DNA of 64,000 bases from Elusimicrobiota bacterium (GTDB lineage: Bacteria > Elusimicrobiota > Elusimicrobia > UBA1565 > UBA9628), in NCBI GenBank assembly GCA_023249645.1, contig JAHFCF010000003.1:62001-126000 (forward strand), read 5' to 3'. Below, piece after piece: positions 1-64,000 of the stretch. Position 1 is the stretch's first letter. The number at the start of each line of letters is the position of its first letter. Below the pieces are notes generated by a model, which did no database searches, was not told the origin of the DNA, and saw nothing but the letters and a program-made list of their open reading frames with translations. Both the position numbers and the translations under genes were made by a program.

Positions 1-1992
1 GATCGTCAGGGCTTTTTGCGCCGCCTTGATCATGGGCTCGGCAGAGATCGGTCCGTTGATGGCCTCTCTCATCCACTCAGCCGGAGTCACGCTGCCGATG
101 CGGCAGAGGCGCTCCATCTCCTTGGCCAAAGAATGCGTCTTGAAAAAATCCTCAACCTGGAAGGCGATGACGTGCCCTAGAGGGTAGTCCGGGATGTAGA
201 GGGCGTAGCAGATGATGTGGGAATAGATGGCCAAGAGCGGGCAATCCTTCCCGCCGAAGAGCGGGGCATAGTATTTGTTCCACACACCCTGGGCGATGGA
301 GACCATGGCGTCGCGCGTCTCGGCGGGCGTGGCTTTCGGATGCTCGTACATCCAATGCCAGATCCGCATGTCCACCAAGGCGACCCCGGCGATCTCGCGC
401 GTCATCCAGAAGTCATCCAAGTCCTTCAAGGCCTGAGCTTTCGCGTCAGGCTTCTTCAGACCGAGGATTTCCAGGTCGCGGGCCTGGAACACGAAGGCGA
501 AGCCTTCGGTGAAGGCCGTGTTGGGCACGCCCTTGAGCAGATACTGGTCCATCTTGTTCAGGGAGAAGACTTGCTCCACGCAATGCCCCAGCTCGTGCAT
601 GGCCACGTTGAAGCCTTGATAATCCATCCCGTCCTTGCCCACGCGCGTTCGCAGATGGGCCTTTTCCTGGCGCATGTCCGCGCCCATGGCATGGCCGGCT
701 CCGCGGGCCGCGTTGACCTCGATGTGGGAGGCGAGGAACTCGGCTGTCTGCGGATCGAAACCGAGCTTGGCGAGGATATGGGGGATGTCCTTGTGGAAAG
801 ACTCCGCCGTGGGATAGCGCTTGCGGATCATGGCGTCGAGCTGATCCTGTGGGAGGCCCTTGGGCGGCTTGAAGGCGTCGTACCAGATGTCGAAGGCATT
901 GAGCTCGCGCTTCAAGCGTTTTTGGATCAGGGAAGCGGTCTCCTTGCCGGCCGGGGCCTCCAGTATGCTGATGAGGATGGCCTCGACCTCGGGCTCTGGG
1001 ATCTCGCGGTTGAGTTGGAAGAGCCTGTCCATGTGCGTGGGATGCGAGGGGTAATAGGGATCTTCCAGGCTGTGGGCGCGCCATACATTGAGAAGCGTGG
1101 CATAGCGTGTGTCCGGCTCGCGCTCAGCCGGCTTGCCATCCAGAGTGTTCTGGATCGGATCCCAGAGGTGGTCCTTGCCGGCCACGGCCGCCTTGGGGAT
1201 CTCCTGGCGGATGATGCGTTCCATGATGGCCTGAATGGTCTTTTGCCGTCCGAGGCCCTTGGGATCGGCGTAGAGGGCCTTGAGCTCGTCGCGTAGGCCC
1301 CAATGCGAGATGAGCTTGAGGTCTTTGCGGAAAAGAGGCTTGCCGTCTGGCCCGGCGACATGGTCCATGGAGATGTCATAGGTGTTGATGTAGTTCTCAG
1401 CCGCCGCGTGAGCGTCGGCCACCTTCTGCTTGACCTCGGCCGGGACGCGGAAGGCGAACATCTGCGCCAGGCGGGCCGCGGCCCATTGCCGGCGATCCCA
1501 GCTCGCGCCGAGCTTCAAGCTTTCCTCCAGGCTCGGGATCGGGAAGTTGAGCAGCACCGTGAAGGCGAGCTTGGACTTGAAGAGATCCGCGCTCAGATGC
1601 GCGGAGGGGGAATAGGCCGCGAACATCTTGTCCATGGGGGAGAGTTCTCCGCGGTCCTCGTCGAGCTCGCGGCGGAGCTCCAGCTCCATGGCCGTGAAAT
1701 GCCCGCGCAGGGCTTCCAGTTTGCTCTGGAAACGGTCGAGGATCAGCTCGCGCTTAGCTCCGACGACAAAATTCTCCATGCAGAACTTCTCAAACTCCTC
1801 GGGCGTTCCGTCCTCGATGGTCCAGCGCAGCGCCGCTTGGCGCACACCGGTCTCTAGGCGCGCCCTCTCGGATGCCGCGACCTGACTCGAGATCTTTTCA
1901 ATGACTTTCTTCACGGGGGCCTCCTGCAGGGCGCTCCGGGCCGGGACGGCGGAGAGGATCGCGGCCGCGGCGAGCGTCTTTGTGATGGTCAT
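1..1992 (-). CDS. Secreted gluzincin-type zinc metallopeptidase (partial, C-terminus beyond window)
   Basis: Minus-strand reading frame open from ATG at 1992 to the window edge; N-terminal signal-like MTITKTLAAAAILSAVPARS; HExxH motif in FNVAMHELGHCVEQ followed by TEGFAFVFQ. Start overlaps the stop of the upstream kinase gene (ATGA). Confidence 0.75.
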   Translation of the reverse strand, partial: MTITKTLAAAAILSAVPARSALQEAPVKKVIEKISSQVAASERARLETGVRQAALRWTIEDGTPEEFEKFCMENFVVGAKRELILDRFQSKLEALRGHFTAMELELRRELDEDRGELSPMDKMFAAYSPSAHLSADLFKSKLAFTVLLNFPIPSLEESLKLGASWDRRQWAAARLAQMFAFRVPAEVKQKVADAHAAAENYINTYDISMDHVAGPDGKPLFRKDLKLISHWGLRDELKALYADPKGLGRQKTIQAIMERIIRQEIPKAAVAGKDHLWDPIQNTLDGKPAEREPDTRYATLLNVWRAHSLEDPYYPSHPTHMDRLFQLNREIPEPEVEAILISILEAPAGKETASLIQKRLKRELNAFDIWYDAFKPPKGLPQDQLDAMIRKRYPTAESFHKDIPHILAKLGFDPQTAEFLASHIEVNAARGAGHAMGADMRQEKAHLRTRVGKDGMDYQGFNVAMHELGHCVEQVFSLNKMDQYLLKGVPNTAFTEGFAFVFQARDLEILGLKKPDAKAQALKDLDDFWMTREIAGVALVDMRIWHWMYEHPKATPAETRDAMVSIAQGVWNKYYAPLFGGKDCPLLAIYSHIICYALYIPDYPLGHVIAFQVEDFFKTHSLAKEMERLCRIGSVTPAEWMREAINGPISAEPMIKAAQKALTI

Positions 1993-4010
1993 GCGATGCG
2001 GCTTTCGAATGCCGTCGAGAAATCTTTGGCGTTGCGGAAGCGTTTCTCGCGGTCCGGCTGCAGCGCCTGCTGGAAGAAATCGTCCAGCCCCGGCACGCCG
2101 GCGGGGGGGAATCGGCCCTCGAGCTTGTCCTGCTGCGCGGTGGGCCCGGAAAAGGGCAGGCGTCCTGAGACCATCTGATAGAGGCTCACGCCGACGGCGT
2201 AGAGGTCGCTCTCCCGGCTCACGGACCCGAAGCCCTGCTCGGGCGCCATGTAGGCCGGAGTGCCCATGACGCAGTCGGTCTGGGTGTGGCCGTCCGGGTT
2301 CTGCGTCCGGTGGGCCAGTCCGAAGTCCATGATCTTGACGGCGCCCTGGGCGATCATGATGTTGGCGGGCTTGAGGTCTCTGTGGATGACGCCTTTGTCA
2401 TGGGCGTAGCCCAAAGCGGAGCAGACGCCGCGCAGCACGGAGAGGCATTCCTTCGGAGCGAGCGGTCCTCGGCGCGCGATGAGGTCATCGAGGGTCTCGC
2501 CTTCCAGCAGTTCGCAGACCATGTAGGACTGTCCATCTTCCTCGACGAGCGCATACACGTCCATGATGTTGGGGTGTTTGAAGTTCGCCACGATGGCGGC
2601 CTCATCTCTGAAGCGTCGGCGCTCTCCAGGATCTGCCCGCAGCGTCTGACAGATTTTCTTCAAGGCCACGCGGCGCTTGAGCTTCAAGTCGATGGCTTCA
2701 TAGACCACGCCCATGCCGCCTTCGCCGATGCGCCGCACGATCTTGTAGGACCCTCCGATGAGGGCGGGGGTATCGCCGGAGATCGGCTTTGGAGATGTCG
2801 GTTCTGCCTTCCCTCTCCGCAGGATGAGGACGAGCAAGAGCAGGAGTAGCGCGGTGCCGGCCAGGATGAGCCAGCCTGTCGTCTGACGGGAGTGCGGGGG
2901 AGCTGGCAGAGGCTGTGGCTTTGGCTGGGCCTGGGCCGTGTGAAGCTCAGCGACGACCGCGCGCATGTCCTCATACTCCTGCTTGTAGCGGGGGTCGAGG
3001 CTGGAGGCGGTCTTGAGGTCGTCGAGGAATGCGTCGGCAAACTGGGGCAGGTCGCCGATCTGTTTGTGGAGTTCGAAGCCGGCCCTGGCCCGGGTGTGGT
3101 AGGCTGTGGCGGCCTTGGGGTTCAGGCGCACGGCCATCTCGGCGTCGTAGACCGCCTCGCGGAAATTCTTGTTGTTGAAGAGGGTCTTGGCCCGGAGCAT
3201 GTAGGTGGTGTCCGAGGCCCATCCCATCTTGATGGCGCGGTCGGCGTCGAGGAAGGCTTCGTTGCCGCGGCCCATCTGCATGTAGACGATGGCGCGCTGG
3301 ACGTAGCCCATGGGGTCGGAGGGGGCGGCGGCGATGGCTTGGTTGGCGAAGGCGAGGGCGGCGTTGAGGTCTCCTTTCTTGCGGCTGGACATGGCGTTGA
3401 CGACGGCCTGGTAGGCTTGGCTCGGATTGGACTTCTGGCGGCTGGTCCAGTCTTCGGGGGAGTGGGCGACGAGGGGATTCTGCTGGGCCAGCTCTTCGGC
3501 GATGCGGCCGGCTGTCGGCGGCACGCGATTTCCGGCGAGCATGTGGACGGAGAAGGCGGCCTTGTTGGTTGGGTCCTGCTTTAAGGCGGCGAGGGCGTCT
3601 TGGTCGGCTGCGGCGTGGTCGCCTTTGGCGTACTCGGCCAGAGAACGAGTGGTTAGAGCTTCGGAGATGGCCTTCGGGTTGCCCGAAGTTTGGGCCGAGG
3701 CAATTGCGTATTTGCTTTGGTCGATGGCTTTGTCGTACTCGCCTGCCTGTGTCAATAGGCTGGTAAAAGCAGTTTGAACTTGGGTATTGGTAGAATTGTT
3801 TTTTGCAATTTCATTACCCCTAGCAATATCTCTATTGATAGCCTCCTTAGCAAGGTCTTGAGTTTTTTGATCTTTTGCAGTCTCAAGATCATGTTGCCGT
3901 CGGTTGATATCCTCGCTAAGTATCTGAAATCCCATAGATTGTTTGTTAATATCACTTGCGAAAGTGCAGGAAACTGGCAGGACGATAGAGAAAACCAATG
4001 AAAGCATCAT
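1989..4010 (-). CDS. TPR-repeat / transmembrane / C-terminal Ser/Thr protein kinase
   Basis: Signal-like N-terminus, TPR-like repeats, TM segment (GWLILAGTALLLLLLVLILRR), kinase motifs GEGGMGVVYEA, HRDLKPANIMI, DFGLA, GTPAYMAPEQ. Confidence 0.93.
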   Translation of the reverse strand: MMLSLVFSIVLPVSCTFASDINKQSMGFQILSEDINRRQHDLETAKDQKTQDLAKEAINRDIARGNEIAKNNSTNTQVQTAFTSLLTQAGEYDKAIDQSKYAIASAQTSGNPKAISEALTTRSLAEYAKGDHAAADQDALAALKQDPTNKAAFSVHMLAGNRVPPTAGRIAEELAQQNPLVAHSPEDWTSRQKSNPSQAYQAVVNAMSSRKKGDLNAALAFANQAIAAAPSDPMGYVQRAIVYMQMGRGNEAFLDADRAIKMGWASDTTYMLRAKTLFNNKNFREAVYDAEMAVRLNPKAATAYHTRARAGFELHKQIGDLPQFADAFLDDLKTASSLDPRYKQEYEDMRAVVAELHTAQAQPKPQPLPAPPHSRQTTGWLILAGTALLLLLLVLILRRGKAEPTSPKPISGDTPALIGGSYKIVRRIGEGGMGVVYEAIDLKLKRRVALKKICQTLRADPGERRRFRDEAAIVANFKHPNIMDVYALVEEDGQSYMVCELLEGETLDDLIARRGPLAPKECLSVLRGVCSALGYAHDKGVIHRDLKPANIMIAQGAVKIMDFGLAHRTQNPDGHTQTDCVMGTPAYMAPEQGFGSVSRESDLYAVGVSLYQMVSGRLPFSGPTAQQDKLEGRFPPAGVPGLDDFFQQALQPDREKRFRNAKDFSTAFESRIA

Positions 4011-4059
4011 GGGCAGATTATGTTAAAATACGTCGGATTTCACAAGGGAGATATTAAAT
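4011..4059. promoter_or_regulatory. Divergent promoter region of the kinase/caspase-like pair
   Basis: Core GGGCAGATTATGTTAAAATA (4011-4030). Minus: -35 TTGTGA (4045-4040), 17-bp spacer, -10 CATAAT (4022-4017), ATG at 4010. Plus: extended -10 TGtTAAAAT (4021-4029) and SD AAGGGAG before ATG 4060. The same 20 bp recurs at 63500-63519 in reverse complement. Confidence 0.7.
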
Positions 4060-5439
4060 ATGCACGCGCTACTTTTACTTCCGAGTCTCTTCTTCTCAGG
4101 CAACGTTAATTCCACAGTTATGCAGCCGCCTGTAGAGAAAAAAATAAAGGAAATTACATTTCATCAATTTATTCAGAACATGCTGGAAACCGGTGCGGAC
4201 TATTCTTTCGACGCTGGTCGATCCGGATTCTTGGAAGTTCCATCAGGGGCACCGTCAAAAACTGCAGAGTCAGATGAGAATTCGGATAATTTCACTCGTT
4301 CCAGCTACCTTGTTTTAAACCCATCTGCTGAAAAACCAGAACCCCTGTGCGTGGTGTTTCATGCTGGAAAAGAGGATCTTCCCAATCGAGAGGAGGCAGG
4401 TTACTACTTTCGTCTCACACCTGGCGGCGTTCTGGAAAAAGCCTTTAAGTCGCAAATCAAACTGGACGAAAAAGGTGAGGCTGTCCTAGGTTCCGGCGTT
4501 GTAACACCTAAGGACATCAGCTCCGTGGAAATTAAGGAGCGTTTCAAGCACGAACTCAACTTCTGGCTCAAAGGGATGTATCGCCTGAGCCCCGAAGAGA
4601 TCGCCGCGCGCAAAGCGGCGGCCAGCGGCGCCGCGGCCAAGCCGCCGGAATCCGTCGCGGTCCTCAATTCCGACGTGGACGAGCCCTCCTACCAAACGCC
4701 TGAAAACCCCGAGAACTATGCCGTCGTCGTTGGCATCGAGAAGTATTCCGACCTCCCGGAGGCGCGCTTTGCCGAGCGCGACGCCCAGGCCGTGCGCGCG
4801 CATCTCGTGGCCTTGGGCTACCCCCAGCGCAACATCCATCTCCTCCTGGGAGAAAAGGCGACCAAGACGGGGATCATCAAGAACGTCGAGACCTGGCTCG
4901 CCAACAACGTCGGCAAGGACTCCACGGTCTTTTTTTACTATTCAGGCCACGGGGCGCCGGAGACGAAATCCCGACAACCCTATCTCGTCCCATTCGACGG
5001 CGACCCGCAGTACATGGGAGACACCGGCTACCCCTTGCAGCGCCTCTACGCCAAGCTCGGAGCCCTCAAGGCCAAGCGCGTGATCATCGCTCTTGACTCC
5101 TGCTTCTCCGGCACGGGCGGGCGTTCGGTCCTGGCCAAAGGCACGAAGCCCCTGATCCTCCAGATGGACACCGCACCCGTCGGGCCCAAGGCCGTCGTCT
5201 TGAGCGCCTCGCGCTTCGACCAGATCTCGGGGACGATGGAGATGCAGGCCCACGGGACCTTCACCTACTTTCTGCTCAAGGGCTTGAACGGCGGCGCTGT
5301 CGATCGGGATGGAGGCATCACCACCCAGTCGCTCTATGACTATCTCGAGCCCAAGGTCGAAGACGCCGCGCGCCGTGAGAACCGCGATCAGGCGCCGCAG
5401 ATGATCCCGCCTAATGCCGCGGACGTCAAATTGAGGTAA
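4060..5439 (+). CDS. Novel N-terminal domain fused to caspase-like (C14/metacaspase) peptidase
   Basis: Caspase-like His motif VFFYYSGHGAP and Cys motif IALDSCFSGTGGRS; NYAVVVGIEKYSDLPEARFAERDAQAV; N-terminal ~170 aa resembles the protein at 62894-63469. Confidence 0.88.
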   Translation: MHALLLLPSLFFSGNVNSTVMQPPVEKKIKEITFHQFIQNMLETGADYSFDAGRSGFLEVPSGAPSKTAESDENSDNFTRSSYLVLNPSAEKPEPLCVVFHAGKEDLPNREEAGYYFRLTPGGVLEKAFKSQIKLDEKGEAVLGSGVVTPKDISSVEIKERFKHELNFWLKGMYRLSPEEIAARKAAASGAAAKPPESVAVLNSDVDEPSYQTPENPENYAVVVGIEKYSDLPEARFAERDAQAVRAHLVALGYPQRNIHLLLGEKATKTGIIKNVETWLANNVGKDSTVFFYYSGHGAPETKSRQPYLVPFDGDPQYMGDTGYPLQRLYAKLGALKAKRVIIALDSCFSGTGGRSVLAKGTKPLILQMDTAPVGPKAVVLSASRFDQISGTMEMQAHGTFTYFLLKGLNGGAVDRDGGITTQSLYDYLEPKVEDAARRENRDQAPQMIPPNAADVKLR

Positions 5440-13326: not shown

Positions 13327-13344
13327 ACTGTTGCCGGCAACAGT
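13327..13344. repeat. Palindrome ACTGTTGCCGGCAACAGT, copy 1
   Basis: Perfect 18-bp palindrome; same core at 40982-40999 and 46291-46308. Confidence 0.9.
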
Positions 13345-16404: not shown

Positions 16405-16438
16405 CATACTTTTCAGCCAAAGACAGTCCTTTCTGACG

Positions 16439-16468
16439 GGAACTTTTTTGCCTCTCGATCGTATATTA
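16439..16468 (+). repeat. Dispersed repeat GGAACTTTTTTGCCTCTCGATCGTATATTA (copy A)
   Basis: Similar to 49371-49405 (-) and 62581-62614 (+). Confidence 0.65.
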
Positions 16469-40702: not shown

Positions 40703-41062
40703 TGCCAGGAATTTTTTAAAATGCATACCCTGAAATGGAGGTTTTCAGCCCGACGGAGTCGGGATGAAAACCCCGGCACCGACACTCAGGTCGGTGCCGA
40801 GCCGTTGTTGTAGCCATCCCCTGAACCCACGCCATCTCTTACGCGCCTCGTGCGCGTAACTTCGTCCTGAAGCAAATACCCGTGTCAGGGCGAAGTTTCT
40901 CACAGACAAATTCGATGCTTTCAGAATTCCCTTGAAGCAGTATCGTGAACTGCAGGCATTTTTTGCTGCTTAATCTGATCAACTGTTGCCGGCAACAGTT
41001 GATCCAAAGAATTATGACTAATGCTCTTTAGGGGTATGCACTTTTAAAAAACGCCCAACAGC
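40703..41062 (+). ncRNA. Candidate structured intergenic element, copy 1
   Basis: Outer inverted repeat TTTTTTAAAATGCATACCC (40712-40730) / GGGTATGCAcTTTTAAAAAA (41032-41051); stems A (40740-40772), B (40774-40799), C (40839-40859), D (AACTTCGTCCTGA/TCAGGGCGAAGTT); flanked by direct repeat GCAGGATCAGCGCA (40689-40702, 41063-41076). Strand inferred. Confidence 0.5.
40977..41004. repeat. Palindrome copy 2, extended to 28 bp
   Basis: GATCAACTGTTGCCGGCAACAGTTGATC, perfect palindrome. Confidence 0.92.
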
Positions 41063-43237: not shown

Positions 43238-43267
43238 ACGAGCAGATTATCTTAAAATTCGTGTACA

Positions 43268-44260
43268 ATGTCTCGCATGAGACTCTCCCTCTGGGCGTTG
43301 GCGCTCTCGTCGAACCTCTTCTTCGCGGCGACGGCCGCCGCGCAGGACCGCCTGGTCTTCGTCGTGGACGTCATCCGCCACGGCGACCGCACGCCGCTCA
43401 TCGATCTGCCGGCGGTGCACCATGTGTGGCCGCAGGGCCTCGGGCAGCTGACCCCCGCGGGCATGCGCCAAGAAGCCGAGCTCGGGGCCAGACTTCGCTC
43501 GGTCTACGTGGACCAGCAGGGCCTGCTTCCGCCTTCCTACACGCCCGGGACCATGTCCGTGCGCTCCACCGACATGGACCGGACTTTGATGAGCGCGGAG
43601 TCCTTCCTGATGGGCCTCTACCCGGCCCAGCCCGTCCCCATCCACACGCTGCCCATTTCCGGCGACACCTTGCTCAACCCCGAAGCCGCGGGCAATAAAC
43701 TCGATGAGGCGCTGGCTCGCGAACAGTCATGGAAGGACCTGAGCTCCCGGCTGCAGCCGAGATTCGCCTCTTGGAGCCGCGCCACGGGCATGGCGATCAC
43801 GACCGTGGATCAGCTGATCTTCCTGCGAGACACGCTCATGATCGACCAGCGCTATCATGTGCCGCTGCCTCAAGCCCTCAGCGAGGAGGATATCCAGATG
43901 ATCCTTGATGAAGGAAGCCGGATCTTCCTGGAGAAGTTCAGCCTGACCGCCCCCAGCACCGGGCGCGAGCTGCTGCAGAGCATCGCCAAGGATATGCAGC
44001 AAGCCAGCCAGGAGAAGTCGCCCCTGAGATACGTCCTCTTCTTCGCGCACGACACGACCCTCATCAGCCAGATGAGCGTTCTGCAAGCGCCTCTGAGCTC
44101 GACCCCGCCTTACGCGTCGCGCCTGAATTTCGCCCTGCTGGACACGGGGAGAAAGGGTTTTGCGATCAAGGTCTTCTACAACGACCAGCCCGTGAAGATC
44201 CCGGCGTGCGGGGGGACTTCCTGCTCTTTGGCGCAGTTCGCGGCCCTGGCCGGGCAGTAG
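43268..44260 (+). CDS. Secreted histidine acid phosphatase
   Basis: Signal peptide; VVDVIRHGDRTPL (RHGxRxP) and LFFAHDTTLISQ (HD). Confidence 0.9.
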   Translation: MSRMRLSLWALALSSNLFFAATAAAQDRLVFVVDVIRHGDRTPLIDLPAVHHVWPQGLGQLTPAGMRQEAELGARLRSVYVDQQGLLPPSYTPGTMSVRSTDMDRTLMSAESFLMGLYPAQPVPIHTLPISGDTLLNPEAAGNKLDEALAREQSWKDLSSRLQPRFASWSRATGMAITTVDQLIFLRDTLMIDQRYHVPLPQALSEEDIQMILDEGSRIFLEKFSLTAPSTGRELLQSIAKDMQQASQEKSPLRYVLFFAHDTTLISQMSVLQAPLSSTPPYASRLNFALLDTGRKGFAIKVFYNDQPVKIPACGGTSCSLAQFAALAGQ

Positions 44261-46130: not shown

Positions 46131-46517
46131 TTAACCTGAATTCTTCAGTTCAGCAGATCATCCGGCTCCGCGGCTGAAAAAAGAGATTATTTTTTTCGTC
46201 TCTTTTTCCATCTATTTCCAGCTGCGCTTCAGTTGGAAATTATGCAACCGAGCAACTCGGTATGCGCACCCAAACTGAAAATCAGGTCGAACTGTTGCCG
46301 GCAACAGTTGCTTGAAAATTTTTTTGAAGACCAAGCGAGGTTTACGCCCCGACAGCGAAGCTGGCGGGACGGAAACCCCGGCGCCGACTGTCCCGTCGGC
46401 GCCGAGGCCGCTGTTCACCCTACTGGTTGGATCAACAATCTCTTACGCTCTTCGGGAGCGTGATTCAGCGCGCAACAGCGCGCTGAATTCAAGCTTCAAC
46501 TGAACTTTTCAGGTTAA
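46131..46517 (+). ncRNA. Candidate structured intergenic element, copy 2
   Basis: Outer inverted repeat TTAACCTGAATTCTTCAGTT / AACTGAACTTTTCAGGTTAA; stems A (46339-46377), B (46379-46404), C (46443-46463), D (ATTCAGCGCGC/GCGCGCTGAAT) in the same order as copy 1; possible -10 TATAAT at 46114-46119. Confidence 0.5.
46290..46309. repeat. Palindrome copy 3 (20 bp)
   Basis: AACTGTTGCCGGCAACAGTT. Confidence 0.92.
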
Positions 46518-49357: not shown

Positions 49358-49370
49358 AAGCGGTTTCTCC

Positions 49371-49405
49371 CTGCCATACATACGATCGAGGGCCGAAAAA
49401 GTTCC
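49371..49405 (-). repeat. Dispersed repeat copy B
   Basis: GGAACTTTTTCGGCCCTCGATCGTATGTATGGCAG on the minus strand, just upstream of the DUF1016 remnant. Confidence 0.7.
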
Positions 49406-62549: not shown

Positions 62550-62580
62550 GGTTAGGAATGCCCTTCGCGCCACTGTGCCG

Positions 62581-62614
62581 GGAACTTTTTTGGCCCTCGA
62601 TCGTATGTAGGGAG
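62581..62614 (+). repeat. Dispersed repeat copy C
   Basis: GGAACTTTTTTGGCCCTCGATCGTATGTAGGGAG. Confidence 0.7.
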
Positions 62615-62636: not shown

Positions 62637-62899
62637 AAGTAATAGGACATTTTCAAAATACATATATGTCCCGCCCCCCTGGCAGTCAACAAGCCCTGGA
62701 AGAACGCCGCCGCCGCGCACTGACCCTATTCAGGCAGGGTGTGAGCGCCATCGAGGTCGCCAGAAGGATCGGCTGCGCGCGCAGTGCGGTCTATGCGTGG
62801 TGGCATATATTCCGCGAAGACGGATCAGAAGGCCTCAGAGCCAGGCTGATACCGGGAAGGCCGCGCCAAAGCCCTTGAGCGGGGAATGTCCTATTACTT
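62637..62899 (+). mobile_element. 263-bp TIR-bounded element encoding only an HTH domain (IS-derived)
   Basis: 15-bp perfect TIRs AAGTAATAGGACATT (62637-62651) / AATGTCCTATTACTT (62885-62899). Confidence 0.75.
62666..62878 (+). CDS. IS630-like transposase N-terminal HTH domain (70 aa)
   Basis: RRRALTLFRQGVSAIEVARRIGCARSAVYAWWHIFREDGSEGLRARLIPGRPRQ. Confidence 0.7.
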   Translation: MSRPPGSQQALEERRRRALTLFRQGVSAIEVARRIGCARSAVYAWWHIFREDGSEGLRARLIPGRPRQSP

Positions 62900-63469
62900 C
62901 GTCGGGGCGGCGGGCTTGTCTGTCGGCTTGCGATACATGCCTTTGAGCCAGAAGTCGAGCTCGTGCTGGAGGCGGTCTTTGATCTCTTTGGAGCCGATGT
63001 CTTTGGGCTCCGGAACGCCTGAACCAGGGATAACCTTTCCACTCGCATCTCGCTTCCCATGAAGCACGAATGCTCTATCTAAAACCCCTTTCTGCGTGAG
63101 GCGGAAATAATAGCTTTCTCTTTCTAATTTTTCCGGGGTCTCCCTGACCGTAAAGAGCACCAGGCAAATGGGTGTAGGATTGTCCGCAGAAGGGTCGAGG
63201 ACCAAGGCGCTGTTATGGCCCATATCATCAGTCGCCTTGCCAGAAGAAAATCCTCGTCCTCTGATCGGTGCACCTGTCGGAACATCCAGGAATTTAGCCC
63301 GTCCGGCCCCAATGGTCGAGTTCTCGCCATCCTTGAGTATGTGCTGGATAAAATCCGGCATGGTTATGGCGCTTGCTTCTTGATTGTGATTTGTAACTAA
63401 ATTCTTAGGTGTTGTAGCCTGGACTGCCGATGTTAGACTGGTTGCTAAGAATAAAATTGAGAAATTCAT
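62894..63469 (-). CDS. Paralogue of the N-terminal domain of the 4060-5439 protein, lacking the caspase-like domain
   Basis: YYFRLTQKGVLDRAF...GSGVPEPKDIGSKEIKDRLQHELDFWLKGMYRK versus YYFRLTPGGVLEKAF...GSGVVTPKDISSVEIKERFKHELNFWLKGMYRL. Start refined from 63583 to the signal-peptide Met MNFSILFLATSL. Confidence 0.85.
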   Translation of the reverse strand: MNFSILFLATSLTSAVQATTPKNLVTNHNQEASAITMPDFIQHILKDGENSTIGAGRAKFLDVPTGAPIRGRGFSSGKATDDMGHNSALVLDPSADNPTPICLVLFTVRETPEKLERESYYFRLTQKGVLDRAFVLHGKRDASGKVIPGSGVPEPKDIGSKEIKDRLQHELDFWLKGMYRKPTDKPAAPTK

Positions 63470-63522
63470 TGTTTTTTCTCCGTCTTGCGCAAAGCGGCCT
63501 ATTTTAACATAATCTGCCCAAG
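63470..63522. promoter_or_regulatory. Divergent promoter region of the right-end module
   Basis: TATTTTAACATAATCTGCCC (63500-63519) is the exact reverse complement of 4011-4030. Plus: -35 TTGCGC (63485-63490), 17-bp spacer, -10 CATAAT (63508-63513), ATG 63523. Confidence 0.7.
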
Positions 63523-64000
63523 ATGCTCGCCCTTCTATTTGCATTCTTATTTCACTTATCTGGATACTGTGCTGATCCTCCAAAAAATCCTCCGCCTATA
63601 CCTGGTGCAGGATCAGACTTTCAGGGCATGAGTGCAGATGATGAGGCAACCAGTATCAATCCTGAAGTCAAAAAGGCTCAAGATGCCTTTCAGAAAACAA
63701 AAGAAGCGGCGGCGCGCATGAAGGACAAGGTGCAAGCCGCTCATCAGGTCGGCGCGGCCCAGGCGACGCGCGACGCCATCATCAACGAGCAGATCAAGGC
63801 GGATCCCAGCCCCGCCACCTACAACAGCGCCGGACTCGCCAAGCTTTCGGACGGCGACTACCGGCAGGCCCACGACTACGTCGACCGCGCCAAGACCCTC
63901 GCCGCGAGCGATCCCAGCAAACTGGCCCCCTTGTACGACACGAGCGCGCGGATCTATTTCGAGGAGCGCAACTACGCCCAGGCGGCCAAGGAAGCCAAGC
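63523..64000 (+). CDS. Secreted TPR-like protein (partial; possible TPR-kinase paralogue)
   Basis: Frame open from ATG 63523 to the window end: MLALLFAFLFHLSGYCADPPKN...SAGLAKLSDGDYRQAHDYVDRAKTLAASDPSKLAPLYDTSARIYFEERNYAQAAKEAK. Confidence 0.7.
   Translation, partial: MLALLFAFLFHLSGYCADPPKNPPPIPGAGSDFQGMSADDEATSINPEVKKAQDAFQKTKEAAARMKDKVQAAHQVGAAQATRDAIINEQIKADPSPATYNSAGLAKLSDGDYRQAHDYVDRAKTLAASDPSKLAPLYDTSARIYFEERNYAQAAKEAK

Follow-up and report, generated by a model that had tools for sequence, protein, structure and literature searches.

Two pairs of divergent genes, one at each end of the window (the whole 64,000-nucleotide stretch of Elusimicrobiota bacterium DNA analysed here), each join a TPR gene to the gene of a secreted protein with a DUF domain. 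A window search located exact copies of a 20-mer, GGGCAGATTATGTTAAAATA, between the genes of both pairs, at 4011-4030 (plus strand) and 63500-63519 (minus strand), so that the copies are mutually inverted. The features of the two modules, and of a third related site, are as follows.

1989-4010, minus strand: TPR / Ser-Thr kinase gene of module 1 (673 aa), its ATG 6 nt (or a second ATG 9 nt) past CATAAT
4011-4030, plus strand: 20-mer of module 1, with the core ATTATGTTAAAAT at 4017-4029
4017-4022, minus strand: -10 CATAAT, toward the TPR-kinase gene
4021-4029, plus strand: extended -10 TGTTAAAAT for the caspase-like gene, with a TG that is the CA of the opposing CATAAT
4040-4045, minus strand: -35 TTGTGA for the TPR-kinase gene, with a 17-bp spacer to CATAAT
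4046-4050, plus strand: GGGAG, Shine-Dalgarno-like, of the caspase-like gene
4060-5439, plus strand: gene of a secreted caspase-like protein with an N-terminal DUF domain, module 1
43240-43259, plus strand: third related site (3 mismatches), in the gap between divergent MFS and histidine-phosphatase genes
62894-63469, minus strand: gene of a secreted DUF protein of module 2 (191 aa), paralogous to the caspase-like protein's N-terminal domain
63485-63490, plus strand: -35 TTGCGC for the module 2 TPR gene, with a 17-bp spacer to CATAAT
63500-63519, minus strand: 20-mer of module 2, found in the window and genome searches
63501-63509, minus strand: extended -10 TGTTAAAAT, toward the module 2 DUF gene
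63508-63513, plus strand: -10 CATAAT, toward the module 2 TPR gene
63523-64000, plus strand, continuing beyond the window (L004:5523-6731): TPR gene of module 2, without kinase (402 aa), its ATG 9 nt past CATAAT

Judged by protein and DNA comparison, the two modules are inverted paralogs: their DUF domains are 46% identical and their DNA matches, in inverted orientation, over 130 nt at 71% and over 44 nt at 84% spanning the promoter. The initial annotation had predicted a leaderless kinase mRNA in both modules, a description that fits the TPR protein of module 1, which has a kinase, but not that of module 2, which consists of TPRs only and has no kinase domain. The secreted domain (62894-63469; 4060-4617) is present in 29 of the 56 genomes of the order, carries a conserved HELDFWLKG close to its end and, in the window, stands by itself in one protein and is joined to a caspase-like domain in the other; the 191-aa protein of module 2 has no Pfam match. 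Genome-collection scans with the kinase and with a broad alignment returned no matches, and a narrower alignment returned three relatives.

When up to 3 mismatches are allowed, the window contains three matches to the 20-mer, where none is expected in a shuffled window, and a pattern search of the whole 2.27-Mb genome found these same three sites only, two of them exact and one with 3 mismatches. The exact reverse complementarity of the two copies between divergent genes, noted in the initial annotation, was recovered at the same coordinates, and the genome-wide search that it had proposed as a check placed both exact copies at the module gene pairs and none elsewhere. The MFS / histidine-phosphatase gap that holds the third site is 39 bp long (window 43238-43276) and looks leaderless for both genes, with GATAAT, 8 nt and ATG on the MFS side and TACAAT, 7 nt and ATG at 43277 on the opposite side.

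The elements read toward the TPR genes were found as described in both modules, namely a -35 (TTGTGA or TTGCGC, the latter, in module 2, being a weak -35), a 17-bp spacer, the -10 CATAAT and 6-9 nt to the ATG. Toward the DUF/caspase side, the extended -10 TGtTAAAAT is likewise present in both modules and has the extended -10 form (TGnTAnnnT) with no recognisable -35. The direction with a -35 has no TG and the direction with a TG has no -35. The opposed hexamers CATAAT and TAAAAT lie on opposite strands of a single core flanked by divergent genes, separated by 1 bp and not overlapping; being separate, they do not reciprocally share key -10 bases on the two strands, and only the TG and the -18T of the forward-side extended -10 fall within the reverse hexamer. 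At six TPR/DUF loci and at the MFS site 5-9 nt separate the end of the -10 from the start codon, which leaves no room for a Shine-Dalgarno sequence, as expected of leaderless genes. The predicted start sites would be 26 bp apart with the usual -10-to-start distance, or 23-25 bp apart if the start sites shift.

The 13-mer ATTATGTTAAAAT is kept at the TPR/DUF pair in four further loci of three other genomes (G008, G036, with two copies, and G038). In each of these orthologous loci a TTG-type -35 precedes CATAAT by 17-18 bp, falling within the opposite gene's leader or first codons, and an ATG or GTG 5-9 nt past CATAAT opens a protein with a signal-peptide-like stretch. The GGGCAG end of the 20-mer is not kept and, by this comparison, the functional part of the 20-mer is the 13-mer. 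The conservation of the 20-mer claimed in the initial annotation therefore stands for its 13-mer core, but part of the identity between the two modules is inherited, since they are paralogous. In G036 the DUF gene also starts 8 nt after its own -10, and this pair looks leaderless on both sides. The core is not obligatory, because the closest DUF-gene homolog (G044) and many others lack it or the divergent arrangement; many have kept nothing but a TAnAAT-type -10 or are no longer arranged divergently. The proposal of a bidirectional core with a near-leaderless TPR mRNA (predicted) is nevertheless well supported, by orthologs of other genera and families, in which the core, its spacing to the -35 and a start codon at 5-9 nt are retained while the rest has changed, and further by the reuse of the core between unrelated divergent genes.

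This reuse was counted in 56 genomes of the order, with plain ORFs rather than curated genes as gene calls. ATTATGTTAAAAT has 12 matches against 0 for the reversed control; an ORF of at least 80 aa starts within 60 nt on both sides in 10 of the 11 loci with sufficient flank, and some of these loci lie between unrelated gene pairs, one of which we take, from its sequence, to be rhomboid/release-factor-like. A relaxed core, ATTATGNTANAAT, gives 43 matches versus 4 in controls. In a 410-kb sample of the bacterium's own genome the extended -10 TGNTANAAT occurs 27 times, versus 8 and 7 in two controls, and usually upstream of genes. The symmetric core ATTNTANTANAAT has 116 sites versus 28 in the control (summed counts) and lies between divergent ORFs at 24 of 27 readable sites, with a start codon 5-9 nt from the hexamer on the left in 20 and on the right in 20 (6% at random); one such pair, with about 28 bp between start codons, is presumably HemB/GuaB-like, going by the N-terminal sequences. 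Across the cores tested, 12 distinct gene-family pairs are leaderless-like on both sides. The pattern CAT-N6-ATTnTA-N(0-12)-TAnAAT has 221 matches in the 56 genomes versus 7 in controls. Phylum-wide, the n=1 pattern is less specific (131 versus 45 in our own count) and its loci are leaderless-like on both sides in only 2 of 30, so the claim is confined to the order. Within the order, the 20-mer looks like one case of a compact bidirectional layout that recurs between many unrelated neighbouring genes.

A 23-bp geometry, ATTNTANAAT, was considered as the main promoter type of the bacterium's own genome and rejected despite a count of 30 versus 4: leaderless-like starts on both sides are seen at none of the 30, and about half of these sites lie in a dispersed AT-rich palindromic repeat. 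Combined with CATN6, this core is found order-wide 86 times versus 6 in controls, with a leaderless-like far side in only 5 of 29. The AT-rich palindromic elements, of about 100 bp in a GC-rich genome (window 16434-16464, 62576-62606 and, on the minus strand, 49365-49405; L187 1483-1586; L195 1491-1578; L190), differ in their central GC palindromes (e.g. AGCGCT, CCCCGGGG, CCACCGGTGG), and at least one copy (L190) has an outer GGGAACTTTTTT..TCGATCGTATG that matches the window repeats; they look like a mobile or terminator-like repeat family. The window also holds three copies of an exact palindrome, ACTGTTGCCGGCAACAGT (13327-13344, 40982-40999 and 46291-46308), possibly an operator or a terminator stem.

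The distance between the opposed -10s appears to be structured. Among the 150 matches listed (of the 221), 37 have a gap of 0 bp and 28 of 1 bp, followed by a trough of 2 each at 4, 5 and 6 bp and a second peak of 13, 12 and 21 at 8, 9 and 10 bp. When identical cores are collapsed, the trough (2, 2, 2) and the second peak (9, 11, 18) persist and the first peak shrinks to 6 and 17, partly since gaps of 0-1 bp allow few different sequences. In a histogram built without the CAT requirement the first peak is clear (21, 29) and the second is weak. The data are thus suggestive of a two-peak rule (0-1 and 8-10 bp). Gaps of 8-10 bp, about one helical turn from the first peak, are seen in leaderless-like divergent pairs at L113, L117 and L120 and among these matches.

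We consider it very probable that the 20-mer acts as a sigma70-type promoter that is bidirectional and asymmetric, gives a leaderless or near-leaderless TPR mRNA and belongs to a compact layout found across the order. In the mechanism that we infer from the observed sequence, conservation, placement and enrichment, polymerase binding, start sites (all predicted) and leaderless translation would combine as follows. In the TPR direction, the polymerase would use the TTG-type -35, the 17-18 bp spacer and CATAAT, and the 5' end of the transcript would fall on the start codon or no more than about 3 nt from it, yielding a leaderless or nearly leaderless mRNA. In the DUF/caspase direction, it would use the extended -10 TGtTAAAAT with no recognisable -35, the TG and the -18 T of this promoter belonging at the same time to the opposing -10. 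For the two window modules, a leader of about 24 nt that carries a Shine-Dalgarno sequence is predicted in this direction. The layout would be general in this order of Elusimicrobiota, often leaderless on one or both sides. Given the adjacent -10s, it is unlikely that both directions are occupied simultaneously.

The initial annotation went further and read the core as a switch, under selection to keep expression of the two genes of each module mutually exclusive. The adjacent hexamers indeed leave no room for two polymerases at once and the core is kept in several TPR/DUF pairs, but we find such a switch unlikely. At basal activity the two directions do not compete in the five E. coli bidirectional promoters tested, where interference required one side to be strongly activated (PMC12825309). 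The layout of the core, moreover, is clade-general rather than a module-specific device, used by unrelated gene pairs and probably by housekeeping genes, where exclusion would be unexpected. Co-expression of the TPR and DUF proteins, both of which have signal peptides, is equally possible.

A recent or gene-converted duplication of the module would explain the identity of the 20-mers without selection. The modules are paralogous and their match runs over 44 nt at 84%, yet the adjoining homologous coding DNA is only about 71% identical and the 13-mer core is kept, between different flanks, in orthologs of other genera and families, which makes this explanation improbable. Even less credence is due to the 20-mer as the operator of a transcription factor common to both modules rather than a promoter core. 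Its only two genome copies do lie at divergent genes, but the conserved bases are exactly those of the two -10 hexamers and the extended -10 TG, at a fixed distance to start codons and -35, and degenerate forms obeying the -10 rules occur at many unrelated genes.

Like the bidirectional promoters with pseudo-symmetric -10 described by Warman, Grainger and co-workers (PMC12825309, PMC10268837), these predicted promoters have opposed -10s in a short AT-rich core enriched between divergent genes, with steric exclusion of two polymerases and extra elements that influence direction. Those of E. coli and Salmonella are defined by divergent start sites 7-25 bp apart (PMC10268837), mostly 18, also 10 or 23 bp apart (PMC12825309); the predicted separation of 26 bp would fall just outside this definition, or inside it, at 23-25 bp, should the start sites shift. 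Their hexamers usually share bases, whereas here they stand back to back at 0-1 bp (predicted starts 25-26 bp apart) or are separated by 8-10 bp, and leaderless-like genes are frequent right at the core. The TAnnnT-type -10 ending 5-9 nt before the start codon, with no Shine-Dalgarno sequence, recalls the leaderless genes of Actinobacteria and Deinococcus-Thermus (PMC3160421, PMC12340547, PMC3898074), except that here it stands on one or both sides of a bidirectional core. M. tuberculosis is described as having divergent promoters in close juxtaposition and, in one case, a divergent pair whose mRNAs are leaderless (PMC3898074); neither Elusimicrobia nor any divergent or bidirectional pair turned up when the texts of PMC3160421 and PMC12340547 were searched. 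The DUF/caspase direction, TGtTAAAAT with no -35, resembles extended -10 promoters (TGnTAnnnT, -35 weak or absent), but its TG doubles as the CA of the opposing -10. The parts are thus already known. In the literature searched, outside which lies the 2021 Nature Microbiology paper that first described bidirectional promoters as widespread, we found neither the leaderless and bidirectional combination as a standard Elusimicrobiota layout, nor its spacing, nor a transcription-start-site study for the phylum.

Chances appear evenly balanced that the standard layout of this order is a bidirectional promoter with -10s 0-1 bp or 8-10 bp (about one helical turn further) apart and one or both genes leaderless, so that a gap of about 25-35 bp would carry all the start signals for two genes. 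Such a layout joins bidirectional promoters and leaderless mRNAs, phenomena usually handled apart, and offers a testable spacing rule. The two-peak spacing, if true, would be a sign of a rotational rule governing how opposed polymerases bind, unlike the E. coli spacings, and the start codons of many divergent genes in these genomes could be re-annotated from DNA alone.
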